Assembly (NCBI GenBank): GCA_958295645.1
Contig: OY282361.1
Span: 642,927-706,926 of the forward strand
Length of the DNA: 64,000 bases
Direction: 5' to 3'
From: Longimicrobiales bacterium
GTDB taxonomy: Bacteria > Gemmatimonadota > Gemmatimonadetes > Longimicrobiales > Gaopeijiaceae
Below the pieces are notes generated by a model. The model did no database searches, was not told the origin of the DNA, and was given only the letters and a program-made list of their open reading frames with translations. The first letter of the stretch is position 1; each line of letters opens with the position of its first letter. Shown here piece by piece: positions 10,889 to 21,844 of this stretch. A program made the position numbers and the translations under genes.

Positions 10889-11908
10889 ATGCGCGCCAAA
10901 GTCGTGACCATCGACCGCCACATCATCGACCAGGAGCGGAAGCACCCGGGCGCCTCGGGTCGGTTCTCCGCGCTCCTCTACGACATCGCGCTGGCGGCGA
11001 AGCTCATCTCGCGCGAGGTCAACAAGGCGGGCCTCGTCGACGTCCTCGGCAAGACCGGCGCGACCAACGTGCAGGGCGAGGAAGTGCAGAAGCTGGACGA
11101 CTTCGCCCAGGAAGTCATCGTCAAGGCCATGGACCACGCGGGCCACCTGTGCTGCATGGTCTCCGAAGAGTGCGACGACATCATCCCCATCCCCGGAAAG
11201 TTCGAGACCGGCAACTACGTCCTGCTCTTCGACCCGCTCGACGGCTCCTCCAACATCGGCGTCAACGTCTCGATCGGCACCATCTTCTCGATTCACCACA
11301 AGGTGTCGCCCGGCCGCCACGGCACGCTGGAAGACTGCCTGCAGCCGGGCTCCAGGCAAGTGGCGGCAGGATACATCGTCTACGGCTCGTCCACGATGCT
11401 CGTCTACACGACCGGCAAGGACGGCGGCGCGCACGGCTTCACGCTCGATCCGTCCATCGGCGAGTTCCTCTTGAGCCATCCGAACATCCGCCTTCCCGAG
11501 CCGCCCGCCCGCATCTATTCGGTGAACGAGGCCTACTACCCGCGCTGGTCCCCGGGCCAGCAGCGGCTGGTGGACCACTTCCGCGGCATGAACGGGGAGA
11601 GCGGCGGAGGCTACAAGTCGCGCTACATTGGTTCGTTGGTCTCCGACTTCCATCGCACCCTGCTCGTGGGCGGCCTGTTCATGTACCCTCTGGAGAAGCG
11701 CGCCCCCGCGGGCAAGCTGAGGATCCTCTACGAGGCGGCCCCGCTGGCGCTGGTCTGCGAAGCGGCCGGCGGCCGGGCCTCCGACGGTGCGCGAGACGTC
11801 CTCGACATCGTCCCCAAGGGGCTTCACGACCGCACTCCGCTCTTCCTGGGCTCCCGGCATCTGGTGGACTTGGCCGAGCAGTACTTGCGGGAAGGATCAG
11901 AATCATGA
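10889..11908 (+). CDS. fbp: Fructose-1,6-bisphosphatase, class I
   Basis: 339 residues, ATG, 18 bases after comEC. It hydrolyses fructose-1,6-bisphosphate to fructose-6-phosphate in gluconeogenesis. Class I marks: CCMVSEECDD for the first metal loop, LLFDPLDGSSNI (metal ligands Asp, Asp, Asp) near residue 111, and the C-terminal LRILYEAAPLALVCEAAGG motif that shapes the sugar-phosphate site. Length is normal (330-340). It is separated from the next gene by a less GC-rich spacer and ends the first plus-strand block. No terminator hairpin is obvious after it. Confidence 0.95.
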   Translation: MRAKVVTIDRHIIDQERKHPGASGRFSALLYDIALAAKLISREVNKAGLVDVLGKTGATNVQGEEVQKLDDFAQEVIVKAMDHAGHLCCMVSEECDDIIPIPGKFETGNYVLLFDPLDGSSNIGVNVSIGTIFSIHHKVSPGRHGTLEDCLQPGSRQVAAGYIVYGSSTMLVYTTGKDGGAHGFTLDPSIGEFLLSHPNIRLPEPPARIYSVNEAYYPRWSPGQQRLVDHFRGMNGESGGGYKSRYIGSLVSDFHRTLLVGGLFMYPLEKRAPAGKLRILYEAAPLALVCEAAGGRASDGARDVLDIVPKGLHDRTPLFLGSRHLVDLAEQYLREGSES

Positions 11909-12132: not shown

Positions 12133-15100
12133 ATGAGCAGACAGAAGCTGATGGCGGCTGCGGCGTTGTTGTTGGCGCCCTTGGCGGCGTGCGACGAAGG
12201 CACGCCTCCTCCGCCGACGGGCGCGATCGAGGGGCAGGTGTCGATCGAGGGCCAGGGAGTGGACGGCGTGACGGTGACGTTGAGCGACGGGAAGTCGGCG
12301 ACGACGGCCGGCGGCGGGTCGTACCGTTTTGCGGGAGTGGAAGGCGGGACGTACACGGTGACGATCAGCGGGTATCCGTCGGACGCGAGCTTCGATGCGA
12401 CGTCGGCGTCGGCGGTGATCGCGACGGCGGACCAGGTGGTGAGGCTGAACTTCGCGGGCTCGTACATTCGAACGGCGAGCGTTCTGGGCGCGGTGACGGT
12501 GGAGGGCGCGGGCCAGGCGAACGTGAAGGTGACGTTGTCGGGGATGTCGAGCGCCACGGCGACGACGAGCGCCGACGGGGCGTACGCGTTCACGGGACTT
12601 CGCGCGGGGACGTACACGGTGGAGATTTCGGAGTTCGACGCGGGCTCGTACGGGTTTTCGAACACGAGCCAGAGCGCGACGGTGGGCGTGGGCGCGTCGG
12701 CGAGCGTGAACTTCGATGGGACGCACATCCGGACGGCGCGCGTTCTCGGCACGGTGACGGTGGAGGGCGAGGGACTCGGCGGGGTGTTGGTGAGCCTGTC
12801 GGGGGTTTCGGAGGCGACGGCGACGACGGACGACGCGGGGTCGTACGCGTTCACGAACCTGCAGGCGGGTACGTACGCAGTGGCGATTTCGGGGTTCGAC
12901 GCTTCGCAGTACGGGTTTGACGCGGCGACGCTCAACGCGACGGTGGGCGTGGGCGAGACGGCGAATCTGAACTTTATGGGGACGGCGTTGCGGACGGCGG
13001 GCATTACGGGCATGGTGACGGTGGAGGGCGAGGGGCTCGGCGGGGTGACGGTGAACCTGTCGGGGACTTCGGAGGCGACGGCGACGACGGACAACACGGG
13101 GTCGTACGCGTTCGATTCGTTGGCTGCGGGTTCGTACGTGCTGGCGATTTCGGCGTTCGACGCGGACTCGTACGACTTCAACGTGCAGGCGAAGAGCGCG
13201 ACGGTGGCCGCGGGCGGTACGGCGAGCGTGGACTTCACGGGTTCGCACATCCGGACGGCGGACATTAGCGGCAAGGTGATGGTGGAGGGCGAGGGACTCG
13301 GCGGGGTGGTGGTGAGCCTGTCGGGGGCTTCGGAGGCGACGGCGACGACGGACGACGCAGGGTCGTACGCGTTCCCGGACCTGCGGGCGGGTTCGTACAC
13401 GGTGGAGATTGCGTTCGACGCTTCGCAGTACGATTTCGACGTGGTGACGCTCAACGCGACGGTGGCCGTGGGCGGGTCGGCGACGAATCTGAACTTCACG
13501 GGTTCGCACATCCGGACGGCGGGCATTAGCGGCACGGTGGCGGTGGACGGCCAACTACTCGGCGGGGTGGTGGTGAGCCTGTCGGGGGTTTCGGAGGCGA
13601 AGGAGACGACGAACGCAGCGGGGTCGTACGCGTTCACGGGTCTGCAGGCGGGTTCGTACACGGTGGAGATTTCGGAGTTCGGCGCGGGCTTGTACGAGTT
13701 TTCGGACACGAGCAAGAGCGCGACGGTGGCCGTGGGCGAGTCGGAGACCGTGAACTTCACGGGTTCGCACATCCGGACGGCGGGCATTAGCGGCAAGGTG
13801 ATGGTGGGGGACGAGGGAATCTCCGGGGTGGTGGTGAGCCTGTCGGGGGTTTCGGAGGCGGAGGACACGACGGACGCAACGGGGTCGTACGCGTTCACGG
13901 ATCTGCAGGCGGGTTCGTACGTGCTGGAGATTTCGGAGTTCGACGAGACCCTGTACGAGTTCGATGTGGTGGCGACCAGCGCGAAGGTGGCCGTGGGCGA
14001 GTCGGAGAACGTGAACTTCACGGGTTCGCACATCCGGACGGCGAGCATTAGCGGCACGGTGGCGGTGGAGGGCGGAGGAATCGGCGGGGTGGTGGTGAGC
14101 CTGTCGGGGGTTTCGGAGGCGAAGGCCACGACGGACGCAGCGGGGTCGTACGCGTTCACGGGTCTGCAGGCGGGTTCGTACACGGTGGAGATTTCGGAGT
14201 TCGACGCGGACTTGTACGAGTTTTCGGACACGAGCAAGAGCGCGACGGTGGCCGTGGGCGCCTCGGAGAACGTGAACTTCACGGGTTCGCACATCCGGAC
14301 GGCGGGCATTAGCGGCAAGGTGATGGTGGGGGAGATGGGAATCGAGGATGTAGTGGTGAAACTGTCGGGGGTTTCGGAGGCGGAGGACACGACGGACGCA
14401 ACGGGATCGTACGCGTTCACGGGTCTGCAGGCGGGTTCGTACACGGTGGAGATTTCGGAGTTCGACGCGGGCTTGTACCAGTTCGCCGCGACGACGCTCA
14501 ACGCGACGGTGGCCGTGGGCGGCACGGCGAGCGTGGACTTCCCGGGGACGGCGTTGCGGGCGGCGGGCTTCTCGGGCCGCTTGTTCGTGGACGAGATACA
14601 GAAGAACAACGAGCTTGACCTGGGCGAGGCGTTGCTGGAGGTGGCCGGCGTGCCGGTGGTGCTGGTGGGTCCCACGGTGATCGACTCGGACACGACGCGG
14701 ACGAACGCGCAGGGGATGTACACGTTCGATGAGTTGACTGCGGGGAGCTACCGCTTGACGGTGCTCCATGACCATGAGGACGCGGCGGATCTGCCTTCGT
14801 GGGTGGGCTACGGCGGCGCCCCGGACGGCTACTTGATGGAGGTGACGTCGCCGGGTATGCAGACGGTGAACTTCCCGTTCGACATCACGATGCAGACGGT
14901 GAAGATGAAGGCGATGTACGGGGCCGAGGAGCAGAATGGCGATCCTGCGGTGGGCGTGCGGGTGAACCTGCACGCGACATCGGGCGCGGCGACGGCCGGC
15001 GGCACCGGCGCGCTGGGCTCGAAGCTGACGGACGAGGAGGGCAACGTGACGTTCACGTTCGAGCGCACCAAGGACACGGGTCCGGGCGGCGGGTTGGTGT

Positions 15101-17211
15101 ACGCCCGTGCGACGGCGGTGAACGGCACGGAGCTGATCAGCGACGGGACGATGCCGGTGGAGTACCAGCCGACGACGCACGAGGTGACGCTGGCGGCTCC
15201 GTTCCGGGTGTTGAGCACGCGTGCGGTGCTGGAGTTCGCGGTTGAGAACTTGAGCAACGACGGAGAGAGCGGCGGCGACGCGATGCCGGGCTGGACGGCG
15301 TACGTGTGGCACGACGCCATGGACGCCGACACTCTGGCGCCGGCGATAGACACGCTGCCGTCGGGAGCGACGGACGGCATGGTGAAGATGACGTACGACG
15401 GCATGAAGCCGGGCGACACCCGCCACATCCGGCTGGCGGGCCCGCCGGAGGTTTCGGCGGAGAGCCAGCCCAACTCGGTGACGAAGGGCGAGAGCTTCAA
15501 GCTGACGGCGACGAAGGGCAAGGACGGCGGCCTGAGGACCAAGGCTCTGGACAAGGTGAGTACGACGACCGAGACGCCGTTCCTGACGTACACGCACGAC
15601 GGGCTGTCGGTTCCGGCGACGAAGATGGACGTGGGCACGATGGCGGTGACGTTCACCACCCAGACGCTGACGGTCGGCGTCCACCACGAGCGCGACAACA
15701 TCGCGGGCTTCACCAACGTCGCCCCCGGCGACGTCCGGCCCACGGACGATGATCTTGGTGCCGCGAGGGCGGACGCCACGCTTCAACTGTCCATGCGGGA
15801 CAGCCGCACCGGCTACCCGGTGCCTCTCGATGACGGAGACGGCGGAGAAACGAACATGCCCAAGAAGCCGGCCTATGGAACGGGCTTGGCCACGTGGACA
15901 AAGCTGGATTCGGACATCAACCTCATCGTGGAGGCTGAGTTCGAGAACAACTTGAAGGGCGTCACCCCGGACCGGCTGAACGTGTTCGACTTGACGACCG
16001 AGGGCACGGAAACCAAGGGGTCCTTCGGCTCCGACGGCGGGCTCGTGCCGGTCGTCATGTTCTGTCCGCAGACGGTGACGGACGGGCCGGCGTACAGCGA
16101 CGACTGCTCCACGTTCGGGTACAAGTTCCAGAGTGGGGAGATCAATCTGAGGGCCCATTCGAGGACCTATCCGTCCGGCGACAGCGTGGTCGCCACCGGG
16201 GTTAAGATCAAGGCCGTGAGGATCGAAGGCGTGGGCGCCACTTCTCCGACCGACGAAACGACGAACGACGACGGCGAGGCTGGTTTCGAGAATCTCGTGG
16301 ACGGCACGTACGTGGTGACGCTCTCGCCCGACACGAAGGGGCTATGGGGATTCGGCACTCGCTCTCCAGACACAGTGACCATCCTGGGAGGCGCGGACGC
16401 CGCGGAACACAACCTAGGCCAAAGCCTCGCCGACACGTTGACGGCTTACGCCATTCACCAGAAGACGATGATTCAGGGCACGGTGGTGAACGACCGCGAC
16501 GGCGGCGGGGCGGGCAACGATGTCGTCGACGACGGGGAGACGGAGGAGGGAATCCTGTTGAGGCTGGTACGGGGGACTCGGACGATTGTTGCGACGACGA
16601 CCACGAACGCGGACGGCGAGTACGATTTCGAGGACGTGGCCGAGGGAACGTACCAAGTCCACGGCCCGACTGGGTCCAACTACGTTCTCTGCGCGGCGAC
16701 GGCGAAGCAGAATACTTGCAGCACGACAACGGCGGCGAAGTCGGCTTCGATAACGACTACGGCGGAGGACACGGTGGCCGAACGGCACGACGTGTTGCCT
16801 GTGTGGAACTACTTCGCCTACGGCATCGACAGCGAACGCGCGGAGAGCTACGACTTCGTGGTGGTGTTCACGGACGGCCGCATGGAAGGCCATGTCGAGC
16901 GCGTCGACAACACCGAGACGCCGCCGGTTACGACGGACTTCGAAGGCGTCACGGTGGATGCGTTCCTGTGCGAGACGTGGAGCAGCGGCTGCACCGAGTT
17001 CGTCAGAAGTGGCTTGCCGGACGAGTCGGTGCAGACCGACGAGGACGGAGAATGGTCGATGACTGGCTTGAGGGAGGGGATCTACCGGATCACGGTGGAT
17101 GTTCCGCAGGGCGAGACCGCGACTCCGGCCATGATCGAGACCACCGGCGGGCAGATATTGATGGGCAAAAACGCGCGGACGCGGAGTCTCGACTTCAGCA
17201 TCGCGAATTAG
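12133..17211 (+). CDS. Giant lipoprotein with nine tandem beta-sandwich (CarboxypepD_reg/CnaB-like) repeats
   Basis: 1,692 residues from ATG 12133, chosen because the signal peptide MSRQKLMAAAALLLAPLAAC starts there; the lipobox LAAC lipidates Cys20. Residues about 31-811 are nine repeats of about 87 residues, each carrying a motif of the form GxVxVEGxGxxGVxVxLSG, then TTDAAGSYAFTGLQAGSYTVEIS and a closing NFTGSHIRTA linker. This is the pattern of carboxypeptidase regulatory-like or Cna-B/SpaA sandwiches. Residues 812-1692 are irregular and include further sandwich-like units (TNAQGMYTFDELTAGSY, TNADGEYDFEDVAEGTY, TDEDGEWSMTGLREGIY). Codons end mostly in G (GCG, ACG, TCG, GTG), unlike fbp and comEC, which prefer C. 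No catalytic motif. Likely a surface stalk or adhesin; that role is inferred. Confidence 0.85.
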   Translation: MSRQKLMAAAALLLAPLAACDEGTPPPPTGAIEGQVSIEGQGVDGVTVTLSDGKSATTAGGGSYRFAGVEGGTYTVTISGYPSDASFDATSASAVIATADQVVRLNFAGSYIRTASVLGAVTVEGAGQANVKVTLSGMSSATATTSADGAYAFTGLRAGTYTVEISEFDAGSYGFSNTSQSATVGVGASASVNFDGTHIRTARVLGTVTVEGEGLGGVLVSLSGVSEATATTDDAGSYAFTNLQAGTYAVAISGFDASQYGFDAATLNATVGVGETANLNFMGTALRTAGITGMVTVEGEGLGGVTVNLSGTSEATATTDNTGSYAFDSLAAGSYVLAISAFDADSYDFNVQAKSATVAAGGTASVDFTGSHIRTADISGKVMVEGEGLGGVVVSLSGASEATATTDDAGSYAFPDLRAGSYTVEIAFDASQYDFDVVTLNATVAVGGSATNLNFTGSHIRTAGISGTVAVDGQLLGGVVVSLSGVSEAKETTNAAGSYAFTGLQAGSYTVEISEFGAGLYEFSDTSKSATVAVGESETVNFTGSHIRTAGISGKVMVGDEGISGVVVSLSGVSEAEDTTDATGSYAFTDLQAGSYVLEISEFDETLYEFDVVATSAKVAVGESENVNFTGSHIRTASISGTVAVEGGGIGGVVVSLSGVSEAKATTDAAGSYAFTGLQAGSYTVEISEFDADLYEFSDTSKSATVAVGASENVNFTGSHIRTAGISGKVMVGEMGIEDVVVKLSGVSEAEDTTDATGSYAFTGLQAGSYTVEISEFDAGLYQFAATTLNATVAVGGTASVDFPGTALRAAGFSGRLFVDEIQKNNELDLGEALLEVAGVPVVLVGPTVIDSDTTRTNAQGMYTFDELTAGSYRLTVLHDHEDAADLPSWVGYGGAPDGYLMEVTSPGMQTVNFPFDITMQTVKMKAMYGAEEQNGDPAVGVRVNLHATSGAATAGGTGALGSKLTDEEGNVTFTFERTKDTGPGGGLVYARATAVNGTELISDGTMPVEYQPTTHEVTLAAPFRVLSTRAVLEFAVENLSNDGESGGDAMPGWTAYVWHDAMDADTLAPAIDTLPSGATDGMVKMTYDGMKPGDTRHIRLAGPPEVSAESQPNSVTKGESFKLTATKGKDGGLRTKALDKVSTTTETPFLTYTHDGLSVPATKMDVGTMAVTFTTQTLTVGVHHERDNIAGFTNVAPGDVRPTDDDLGAARADATLQLSMRDSRTGYPVPLDDGDGGETNMPKKPAYGTGLATWTKLDSDINLIVEAEFENNLKGVTPDRLNVFDLTTEGTETKGSFGSDGGLVPVVMFCPQTVTDGPAYSDDCSTFGYKFQSGEINLRAHSRTYPSGDSVVATGVKIKAVRIEGVGATSPTDETTNDDGEAGFENLVDGTYVVTLSPDTKGLWGFGTRSPDTVTILGGADAAEHNLGQSLADTLTAYAIHQKTMIQGTVVNDRDGGGAGNDVVDDGETEEGILLRLVRGTRTIVATTTTNADGEYDFEDVAEGTYQVHGPTGSNYVLCAATAKQNTCSTTTAAKSASITTTAEDTVAERHDVLPVWNYFAYGIDSERAESYDFVVVFTDGRMEGHVERVDNTETPPVTTDFEGVTVDAFLCETWSSGCTEFVRSGLPDESVQTDEDGEWSMTGLREGIYRITVDVPQGETATPAMIETTGGQILMGKNARTRSLDFSIAN
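12223..14565 (+). repeat. Nine tandem in-frame repeats, eight exactly 261 bp
   Basis: Unit starts are 12223 (255 bp), 12478, 12739, 13000, 13261, 13522, 13783, 14044 and 14305, the last ending at 14565. Units 2-9 are each exactly 261 bp (87 codons). Units 6-9 are nearly identical over long stretches and unit 1 is the most diverged, as expected for an array that grew by recent duplication toward its 3' end. Unit 5 has lost one codon and gained another yet keeps 261 bp. Such an array can change copy number by recombination and may be miscounted in short-read assemblies. Confidence 0.9.
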
Positions 17212-17276: not shown

Positions 17277-17317
17277 CTCGCCCCCGTCCGGTTCGCGCCG
17301 GACGGGGGCGAGTTTTT
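17277..17317 (+). terminator. Strong intrinsic terminator of the repeat lipoprotein
   Basis: A perfect 15-bp stem (CTCGCCCCCGTCCGG, 17277-17291, with its complement at 17298-17312) and a six-base TTCGCG loop, followed directly by five T at 17313-17317. It stops plus-strand transcription between convergent genes; its T-run overlaps the TAA of purF. A second, weaker hairpin (GGCAGGTCCTCG with CGAGGGCCTGCC) precedes it at about 17228-17259. There is no T-run for minus-strand transcripts. Confidence 0.9.
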
Positions 17318-18745
17318 ACGTGCGCCTGGAGTCGCCTGTTGCGTCTCGGTCCAAGAGAGGCGCGGGATAAGCGCCGGAGAAGCAGGCGTCGCAGAAAGGC
17401 GCGCCATCGGCGACGGACTGGGTCATGCCGTCGAGCGACAGGTAGCCGAGAGAATCGACGCCCAGTTCGGCGGCCGTACCGGCGACGGACAGGCGCGAGC
17501 CTATGAGTTCTTCGCGCGAGGGCATGTCGATCCCGTAGAAGCAAGGGAATCGCACGGGGGGGCTGGCGATGCGCAAATGGACCTCTCGGGCGCCTGCGTT
17601 CTGGATGAACTTGACCAGGCTGCGCGAAGTCGTGCCGCGCACCAGCGAGTCGTCCACGACCACCACGCGTTGTCCGGCCAGCACCTCGCGAACCGGGTTG
17701 TACTTGATGCGGGCGCCGAAGTCGCGGTCGGCCTGGGAGGCGCGGATGAAGGTGCGCCCTACGTAGTGATTGCGCAGCAGACCGAGTTCGTACGGGATCT
17801 TGCTTTGCTCGCTGAAACCGAGCCCGGCGGAGTTGGCGCTGTCGGGGACGCTGATCACGCAATCCGCATCGACCGGGTGCTCGCGAGCGAGCTGGCGGCC
17901 GAACGCCCGCCTGGCCCGGTCCACGCCCATGCCCCAGATGCGCGAATCCGGCCGCGCGAAGTAGACCAGCTCGAAGATGCACGGAGCCGGGGTCGTCGGA
18001 TGCAGGCCGGGCAGGCTGGCCGCCTTGCCGCCCTCGACTCGCAGCAGCTCGCCCGCCTTCACGTCGCGAACGAACTCGGCGCCCACGATGTCCAAGGCGC
18101 AGGTCTCGCTCGCGAGCACGTGTCCTTGCCCGAGCTTGCCCAGCACGAGGGGGCGGAAGCCTCTCGGATCGCGCACCGCGAACATGGCGTCGCCCACCGT
18201 GACGACCAGCGAGTAGGCGCCTTCCAAGAAGCTCAGCGCGTCGCGGATCTGGGCTTCGACAGACGTGTGCCGGGAACGGGCGATCAGGTGAACGATCACC
18301 TCGGAATCCGACGAACTCTGAAAGATGGCGCCCTCGGCGACCAACTGCTTCTTCAGCGTCTGCGCGTTCGTGAGATTGCCGTTGTGAGCGATCGCCAAGT
18401 CTCCCTCGGCGTAGCGGACCACGATCGGCTGCGCGTTCGCCCGCTGTCCGTCTCCCGCGGTCGAATACCGCACGTGTCCAAGAGCGGTGCGGCCCTCGAG
18501 GGAGGAAATGCGCTTCGCGCCGAAGACGTCCGAGACGAGGCCGAGGTCCTTGTGGAGACTCGCGCAGCCGTCGTGCACGGCGCAGATGCCCGCGGCTTCC
18601 TGGCCACGGTGCTGAAGCGCATAGAGGCCGAGGAAGATGAGTTCGGCGGCGCCGTCGATGCCGCTGATGCCGACGATGCCGCATTCCTCGCGCGGCCGGT
18701 CGTCCAGTTCGCGGACCGGAACGTCGCAGGTGCGGCGCACAGAGG

Positions 18746-18749
<4 letters not shown>
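17316..18749 (-). CDS. purF: Amidophosphoribosyltransferase PurF
   Basis: 477 residues. First committed enzyme of purine synthesis: glutamine plus PRPP gives 5-phosphoribosylamine. The N-terminal glutaminase nucleophile is Cys23 (REECGIVGI), so a 22-residue propeptide must be removed, as in Bacillus-type PurF. Further cysteines at [17 protein letters not shown] and the FCDACF pair match the four ligands of the structural 4Fe-4S cluster of that subtype. The PRPP loop is [14 protein letters not shown]. The start ATG overlaps the purQL stop (ATGA), so translation is probably coupled. Oxygen-sensitive regulation is known for the iron-sulfur subtype. Confidence 0.96.

Positions 18750-21844
<3,095 letters not shown>

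Follow-up and report, generated by a model that had tools for sequence, protein, structure and literature searches.

The window analysed here is a stretch of 64,000 nucleotides from a Longimicrobiales bacterium (Gemmatimonadota), in which an open reading frame on the forward strand (12133–17211) encodes a protein of 1692 residues. Translation shows that it starts with a lipoprotein signal, MSRQKLMAAAALLLAPLAAC-DEGTPPPP, composed of a signal peptide at residues 1–19 (MSRQKLMAAAALLLAPLAA; 12133–12189) with the lipobox LAAC at Cys20, which is kept in nearly all orthologs, and of the lipidated Cys20 with an acidic and proline linker, CDEGTPPPPT (12190–12219). The gene is preceded by genes for a carbamoyltransferase, ComEC and the class I fructose-1,6-bisphosphatase fbp (10889–11908, forward strand; Pfam FBPase), and followed on the opposite strand by the amidophosphoribosyltransferase gene purF (17316–18731; glutamine amidotransferase domains) and by a frame joining PurQ and PurL. 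Synteny makes fbp and purF the upstream and downstream anchors of the locus; fbp is no functional partner of the repeat lipoprotein, and the neighbouring genes in the window suggest no operon partner. We found no tRNA or Rfam family within the window, and hence nothing pointing to a tRNA integration site or a riboswitch. In the frame at 18746–21844 (reverse strand) a PurQ-like glutamine amidotransferase comes first, followed by PurL domains; relatives align to it only from residue 286, so this fusion may be special to the window genome.

The linker is followed by an array of repeats (12220–14559) of 84 and then eight times 87 residues. Unit 1 (12220–12471) measures 252 or 255 bp depending on the chosen start, unit 2 (12472–12732) and every later unit exactly 261 bp, and units 3–9 (12733–14559) start at 12733, 12994, 13255, 13516, 13777, 14038 and 14299. 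A search for direct repeats retrieved nine copies in an exact 261-bp register, and TRF gave a score far above chance (2294; period 261, 8.0 copies, 80% matches). Unit 5 keeps its 87 residues only because a one-residue deletion is compensated by an insertion. Identity at the DNA level is 53–58% between unit 1 and the others, 68–79% between unit 2 and units 3–9, and 74–94% among units 3–9, with the highest value for units 6 and 8. A sequence-only reading of this DNA had described a lipid-anchored protein of this length with one repeat of 255 bp and eight of 261 bp, the late ones being the most alike, and all of this is borne out. A second giant lipoprotein, with a 1609-residue open frame, lies on the reverse strand of G000 (C1, about 121843–126669; L242:844–5670). 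It carries about nine near-identical invasin/Big_1-like repeats of about 310 bp, whose mutual similarity looks higher than that of the units in the gene at 12133–17211, and a C-terminal metalloprotease-like motif (HEVGHVLGVGTLW).

A structural model of units 6–9 with the first head domain reached a pLDDT of 88.6 and a pTM of 0.48, which makes the predicted fold of the domains confident and their arrangement not. The top Foldseek ranks were the TIE protein of B. anthracis, pilins and SdrD, and the other matches were pilins and adhesins. When a single unit was aligned with VIA-align, it matched the SdrD B domain (Z 12.5, 1.5 Å, 86 residues) and the transthyretin-like domain of carboxypeptidase D (Z 11.1). 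The units are thus predicted to be CnaB/transthyretin-like (prealbumin-like) beta sandwiches, in line with the sandwich repeats proposed from the sequence. At the sequence level, the nine units have no invariant Lys or Glu column of the kind expected for the isopeptide triad (Lys, Asn/Asp, Glu), and a Lys is common to at most three of the nine in any column.

The part of the protein beyond the array had been said to match nothing known and perhaps to be the working head; the first of these is not right, and a distinct head of a new kind is not supported. Pfam finds 12 CarboxypepD_reg and 13 SdrD_B stretches in the whole protein, with matches above cut-off. When 13 heads of the family were scanned, SdrD_B was found in 11, SpaA in 10 and CarboxypepD_reg in nine, while one or two had fn3 or cadherin-like domains. 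The head opens with an SdrD_B-like domain with a DEIQKNNELDLGE loop (14560–14847; PF13620/PF17210), followed by a beta-rich, family-conserved middle (14848–16173) with a weak Big_1 match at head residues 124–172 and a low-confidence model. Further on lie a weak unit-like sandwich domain (16174–16422; 17 bits with the unit HMM), an SdrD_B domain at residues 1451–1538 that is the best Pfam stretch (16483–16746), and a weak, family-conserved CnaB/CarboxypepD_reg-like domain at the C-terminus (16987–17208; unit HMM 4 bits, residues 1619–1666; CarboxypepD_reg below cut-off). In a structure prediction of the head, the first domain is modelled with a pLDDT of about 80, but the mean over the head is 48.6 and most of it lacks a confident fold. 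Pfam scans of the whole protein and of the 13 heads revealed neither an enzyme family nor a known adhesive domain. Where it can be read, the head therefore consists of further SdrD_B/SpaA/CarboxypepD_reg sandwich domains; it is not enzyme-like, and relatives in the family have it too.

Strong matches to the protein were present in 21 of 58 genomes searched from the family and order of the window genome, itself included. Throughout one Gemmatimonadota family, the ortholog is placed between fbp and purF or immediately follows fbp. The number of units at this locus differs between species from 2 to 12, at odds with the identical number in all relatives that would have spoken against a length-variable array. 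Most genera have two units (g7, g8, g10, g11, g14, g18, g19, g21, g22, g33 and g56), g29 and g57 have three, g26 has four and the window genome nine, while different species of g25 have 4, 5, 6, 7, 9 and 12. Many short-read contigs end within or near the array, which makes some of these counts minimum values; the assemblies of G024, G025 and G089 consist of one or two contigs. The sample comprises one genome per species, and the differences are those between species. In g4, g23, g24, g30 and some other genera, no array is present and purF sits next to fbp or almost so. In four further species of g25 (L113, L115, L118 and L124), the homolog has three units and is encoded on the opposite strand, some 1.2 kb beyond fbp, and G011 (g12) carries at least six paralogs of the lipoprotein away from the fbp locus (L033–L038). 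A literature search on this lipoprotein family retrieved nothing specific to it.

The larger arrays are concentrated in one part of the family. In the fbp tree, g1, g25 and g26 form a single clade (SH-aLRT 97), and the clade of the window genome, its sister genus and g25 carries 3 to 12 units; G096 (g5), with six, lies outside it. Judging by isolate prefixes, the relatives presumably come from sponge metagenomes and from soda-lake and marine sediment bins. Many genomes of the expanded clade are from sponges. Palauibacterales are a salt-related order whose sponge genomes fall in a single genus, Palauibacter (PMC10469786), which is probably our g25. Sponge-associated MAGs are reported to be enriched in adhesion proteins as a general trend (PMC8163846), which is background and not evidence for this gene. 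We considered a sponge-specific cause of the expansion and rejected it: the expansion is essentially that of one clade, so its correlation with sponges has almost no independent replicates, and G096 is outside.

In a tree of units across genera, all first units form one group, second units group by position, and units 3–9 of the window genome group among themselves. The tree rests on a short alignment and many of its forks are weak; its grouping indicates that units 1 and 2 are ancestral, unit 1 being orthologous in all relatives and unit 2 a positional ortholog, and that the other seven most likely arose by amplification in the lineage of the window genome, after its split from g25 and g26. 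The array had been proposed to grow from its 3' side. This is right in that the amplified copies lie 3' of the two ancestral units, but simple 3' extension does not account for the pattern. Mean DNA identity is highest between units two positions apart (85.2%), ahead of neighbours (81.6%) and of units three apart (79.8%); the closest pairs include 6/8 and 3/5, and units 7 and 9 are sisters in the tree. Such a two-unit rhythm is consistent with duplication of 522-bp blocks. Moreover, best-match windows show unit 9 to be a mosaic of units 7, 6/8 and 3. The PHI statistic (0.427, against 0.493 ± 0.015) was lower than in any of 2000 permutations. In most relatives the units share only about 30–60% of their amino acids, so recombination there must be old. 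In G080 the 5' end of the gene is duplicated in tandem (382 bp, 93% identical), and a truncated copy with the signal and unit 1 stands just before the start of the full gene (L120:1206–2564); as this genome is a MAG, it could be an assembly effect.

Where the protein resides depends on how the residues after Cys20 are read. Nearly all orthologs have an acidic residue at position +2 or +3. In the same lineage, this is the case for 15 of 16 SusD-family lipoproteins and for none of eight BamD-like ones, which face the periplasm (Fisher exact test, p = 1.2e-5), a comparison that may reflect motifs specific to SusD. The Asp or Glu at these positions in the SusD-family lipoproteins (loci L202–L241) may itself be a signal by which Gemmatimonadota export lipoproteins to the surface. 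In E. coli, Asp at +2 keeps lipoproteins in the inner membrane, and the sorting inference could therefore be reversed in Gemmatimonadota. In Bacteroidota, tests have shown an acidic motif after the Cys to act as a signal for export to the surface (PMC5080379), and SusCD systems have been reported in Gemmatimonadota (PMC10469786). With an acidic start like that of the SusD family, display at the cell surface is the more likely reading. Along the protein, identity drops from the anchored to the free end in eight of nine species pairs (rho −0.68 to −0.90), the pair G004/G097 showing no gradient.

The strongest competing explanation, which we nevertheless regard as unlikely, is a structural lipoprotein of the periplasm or inner membrane, with Asp21 as a Lol-avoidance signal and the chain of domains as a periplasmic scaffold or spacer. 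The sequence CDEG after the lipobox would be a retention signal by the E. coli rule, and the acidic residue is almost universal in the family; yet the comparison with SusD-family and BamD-like proteins points the other way, the fast-evolving far end suggests contact with the outside, and a chain of some 15 sandwich domains, at about 4 nm apiece, would by our own estimate be far longer than a periplasm of 20–30 nm. We give only a small chance to a surface lipoprotein that binds nutrients or glycans for TonB/SusCD-type uptake, its sandwiches being binding modules and not a stalk. Such systems do contain CarboxypepD_reg and fn3_3-like sandwiches, and CarboxypepD_reg proteins are numerous in the genome, with several encoded by frames about 1000 residues long; polysaccharide utilization loci (PULs) are also present in the order (PMC10469786). 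However, no SusC, SusD or CAZyme gene was found adjacent to the gene, whose neighbours are ComEC, fbp, purF and purQL, and no carbohydrate-binding module stands out in family scans of the protein and the heads.

The units evolve at very different rates. Among orthologs, omega is 0.15 for unit 1 and for unit 2, 0.30 for the head and 0.35–0.45 for the arrays of three relatives. The new units of the window genome have the highest omega observed in the family: with F3X4 codon frequencies, units 3–9 give 1.1–1.2, indistinguishable from 1, and the likelihood profile allows about 0.65–2.1 and excludes 0.4 (lnL −1050.3 against −1042.4), values that recombination between units biases. Positive selection on the late units, considered because dN exceeds dS between them by NG86, is not shown, as the signal is gone once codon frequencies are modelled. 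Units 3–9 diverge near neutrality (omega about 1.1). It is quite improbable that the amplified units merely drift with no selected function beyond folding, as an omega of this size would allow, because all units keep reading frame, length and core residues, rates differ strongly between sites (+G4 gains about 21 lnL), arrays of 3–12 units are maintained across the whole clade, and omega is well below 1 in the arrays of relatives. Divergence of neighbouring repeats protects multidomain proteins from misfolding (PMC4660218), and this is a possible reason why new units diverge.

Finding 2 to 12 repeated domains at the same chromosomal place most likely means a surface stalk of evolving length, and we consider it probable that the protein is a lipid-anchored, outward-facing, Periscope-like fibrillar stalk, with unequal recombination as the process by which its length evolves. 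The lipid on Cys20 would hold the protein, which seems to consist almost wholly of small beta sandwiches, in the outer membrane, with the two ancestral sandwich units as the base of a stalk lengthened in the window lineage by the seven amplified ones. At the free, fast-evolving end, SdrD_B/CnaB-type domains would be strung in a chain, and it is most likely there that other cells, host matrix or ligands are contacted; this exposed part may serve attachment or shielding. More tentatively, an acidic signal after the Cys, similar to that of Bacteroidota, may sort lipoproteins to the surface in this Gemmatimonadota family. One of them, at a fixed chromosomal place, may then have gone from a short two-unit form to a stalk of 3–12 units in the largely animal-associated clade, its fresh units being permitted or driven to diverge near neutrality, with length and surface changing in step.

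The stalks of variable length described so far are mainly wall-anchored proteins, from bacteria that are cultured and in many cases pathogenic; the group to which this bacterium belongs is mostly uncultured and partly sponge-dwelling. With a lipid-anchored stalk at a single conserved locus, one can read how the array grew: ancestral units can be told from new ones, and the pace at which the new ones diverge can be followed. The acidic residues after the Cys also provide a testable signal for the surface sorting of lipoproteins in a phylum of which few members have been cultured.

Several known systems resemble parts of this protein. The SdrD_B, SpaA and CarboxypepD_reg models and the B-domain structures of SdrD and UafA match its units and head, a likeness shared with Gram-positive pilins. 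Membership in the SdrC/SdrD MSCRAMM adhesins, which have A domains and an LPXTG anchor, was rejected (54.9 bits against an NCBIfam cut-off of 2500). So was membership in the family of the anammox S-layer glycoprotein Kustd1514 (NF052345): eight stretches match, and one C-terminal part of the model holds the best of them, but the score is 71.2 bits against a cut-off of 1400, and a lipobox is present here. The transthyretin-like domains of NOMO and carboxypeptidase D share the sandwich fold (phmmer hits NOMO2 at 2e-10), but these are eukaryotic proteins of the secretory pathway and the likeness is one of fold only. With fibrillar adhesins (PMC8286594) the protein shares tandem stalk domains; it is not filed among them because the definition asks for at least one known adhesive domain and the Pfam scans found none, and those are wall-anchored, whereas this is a Gram-negative lipoprotein with no invariant isopeptide residues. 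The closest parallel is with the Periscope Proteins (SasG, Rib and Sgo_0707), in which the number of tandem globular domains in the stalk varies, a variation attributed to recombination between similar repeats (PMC8201768). Those proteins are presented at the surface by a C-terminal wall anchor, instead of the N-terminal lipid found here, and end in a functional domain, whereas Pfam finds no known functional or ligand-binding domain at this free end. Their units are nearly identical, and the tandem globular array described here also has high DNA identity, lower than in the classic cases. Their length varies within species and that of the lipoprotein is known to vary between species only, so we do not file it as a member. 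The likeness lies in the long stalk with a variable number of tandem globular domains; here its length would change as in Periscope Proteins, with the 261-bp units undergoing gene conversion and unequal recombination among themselves.
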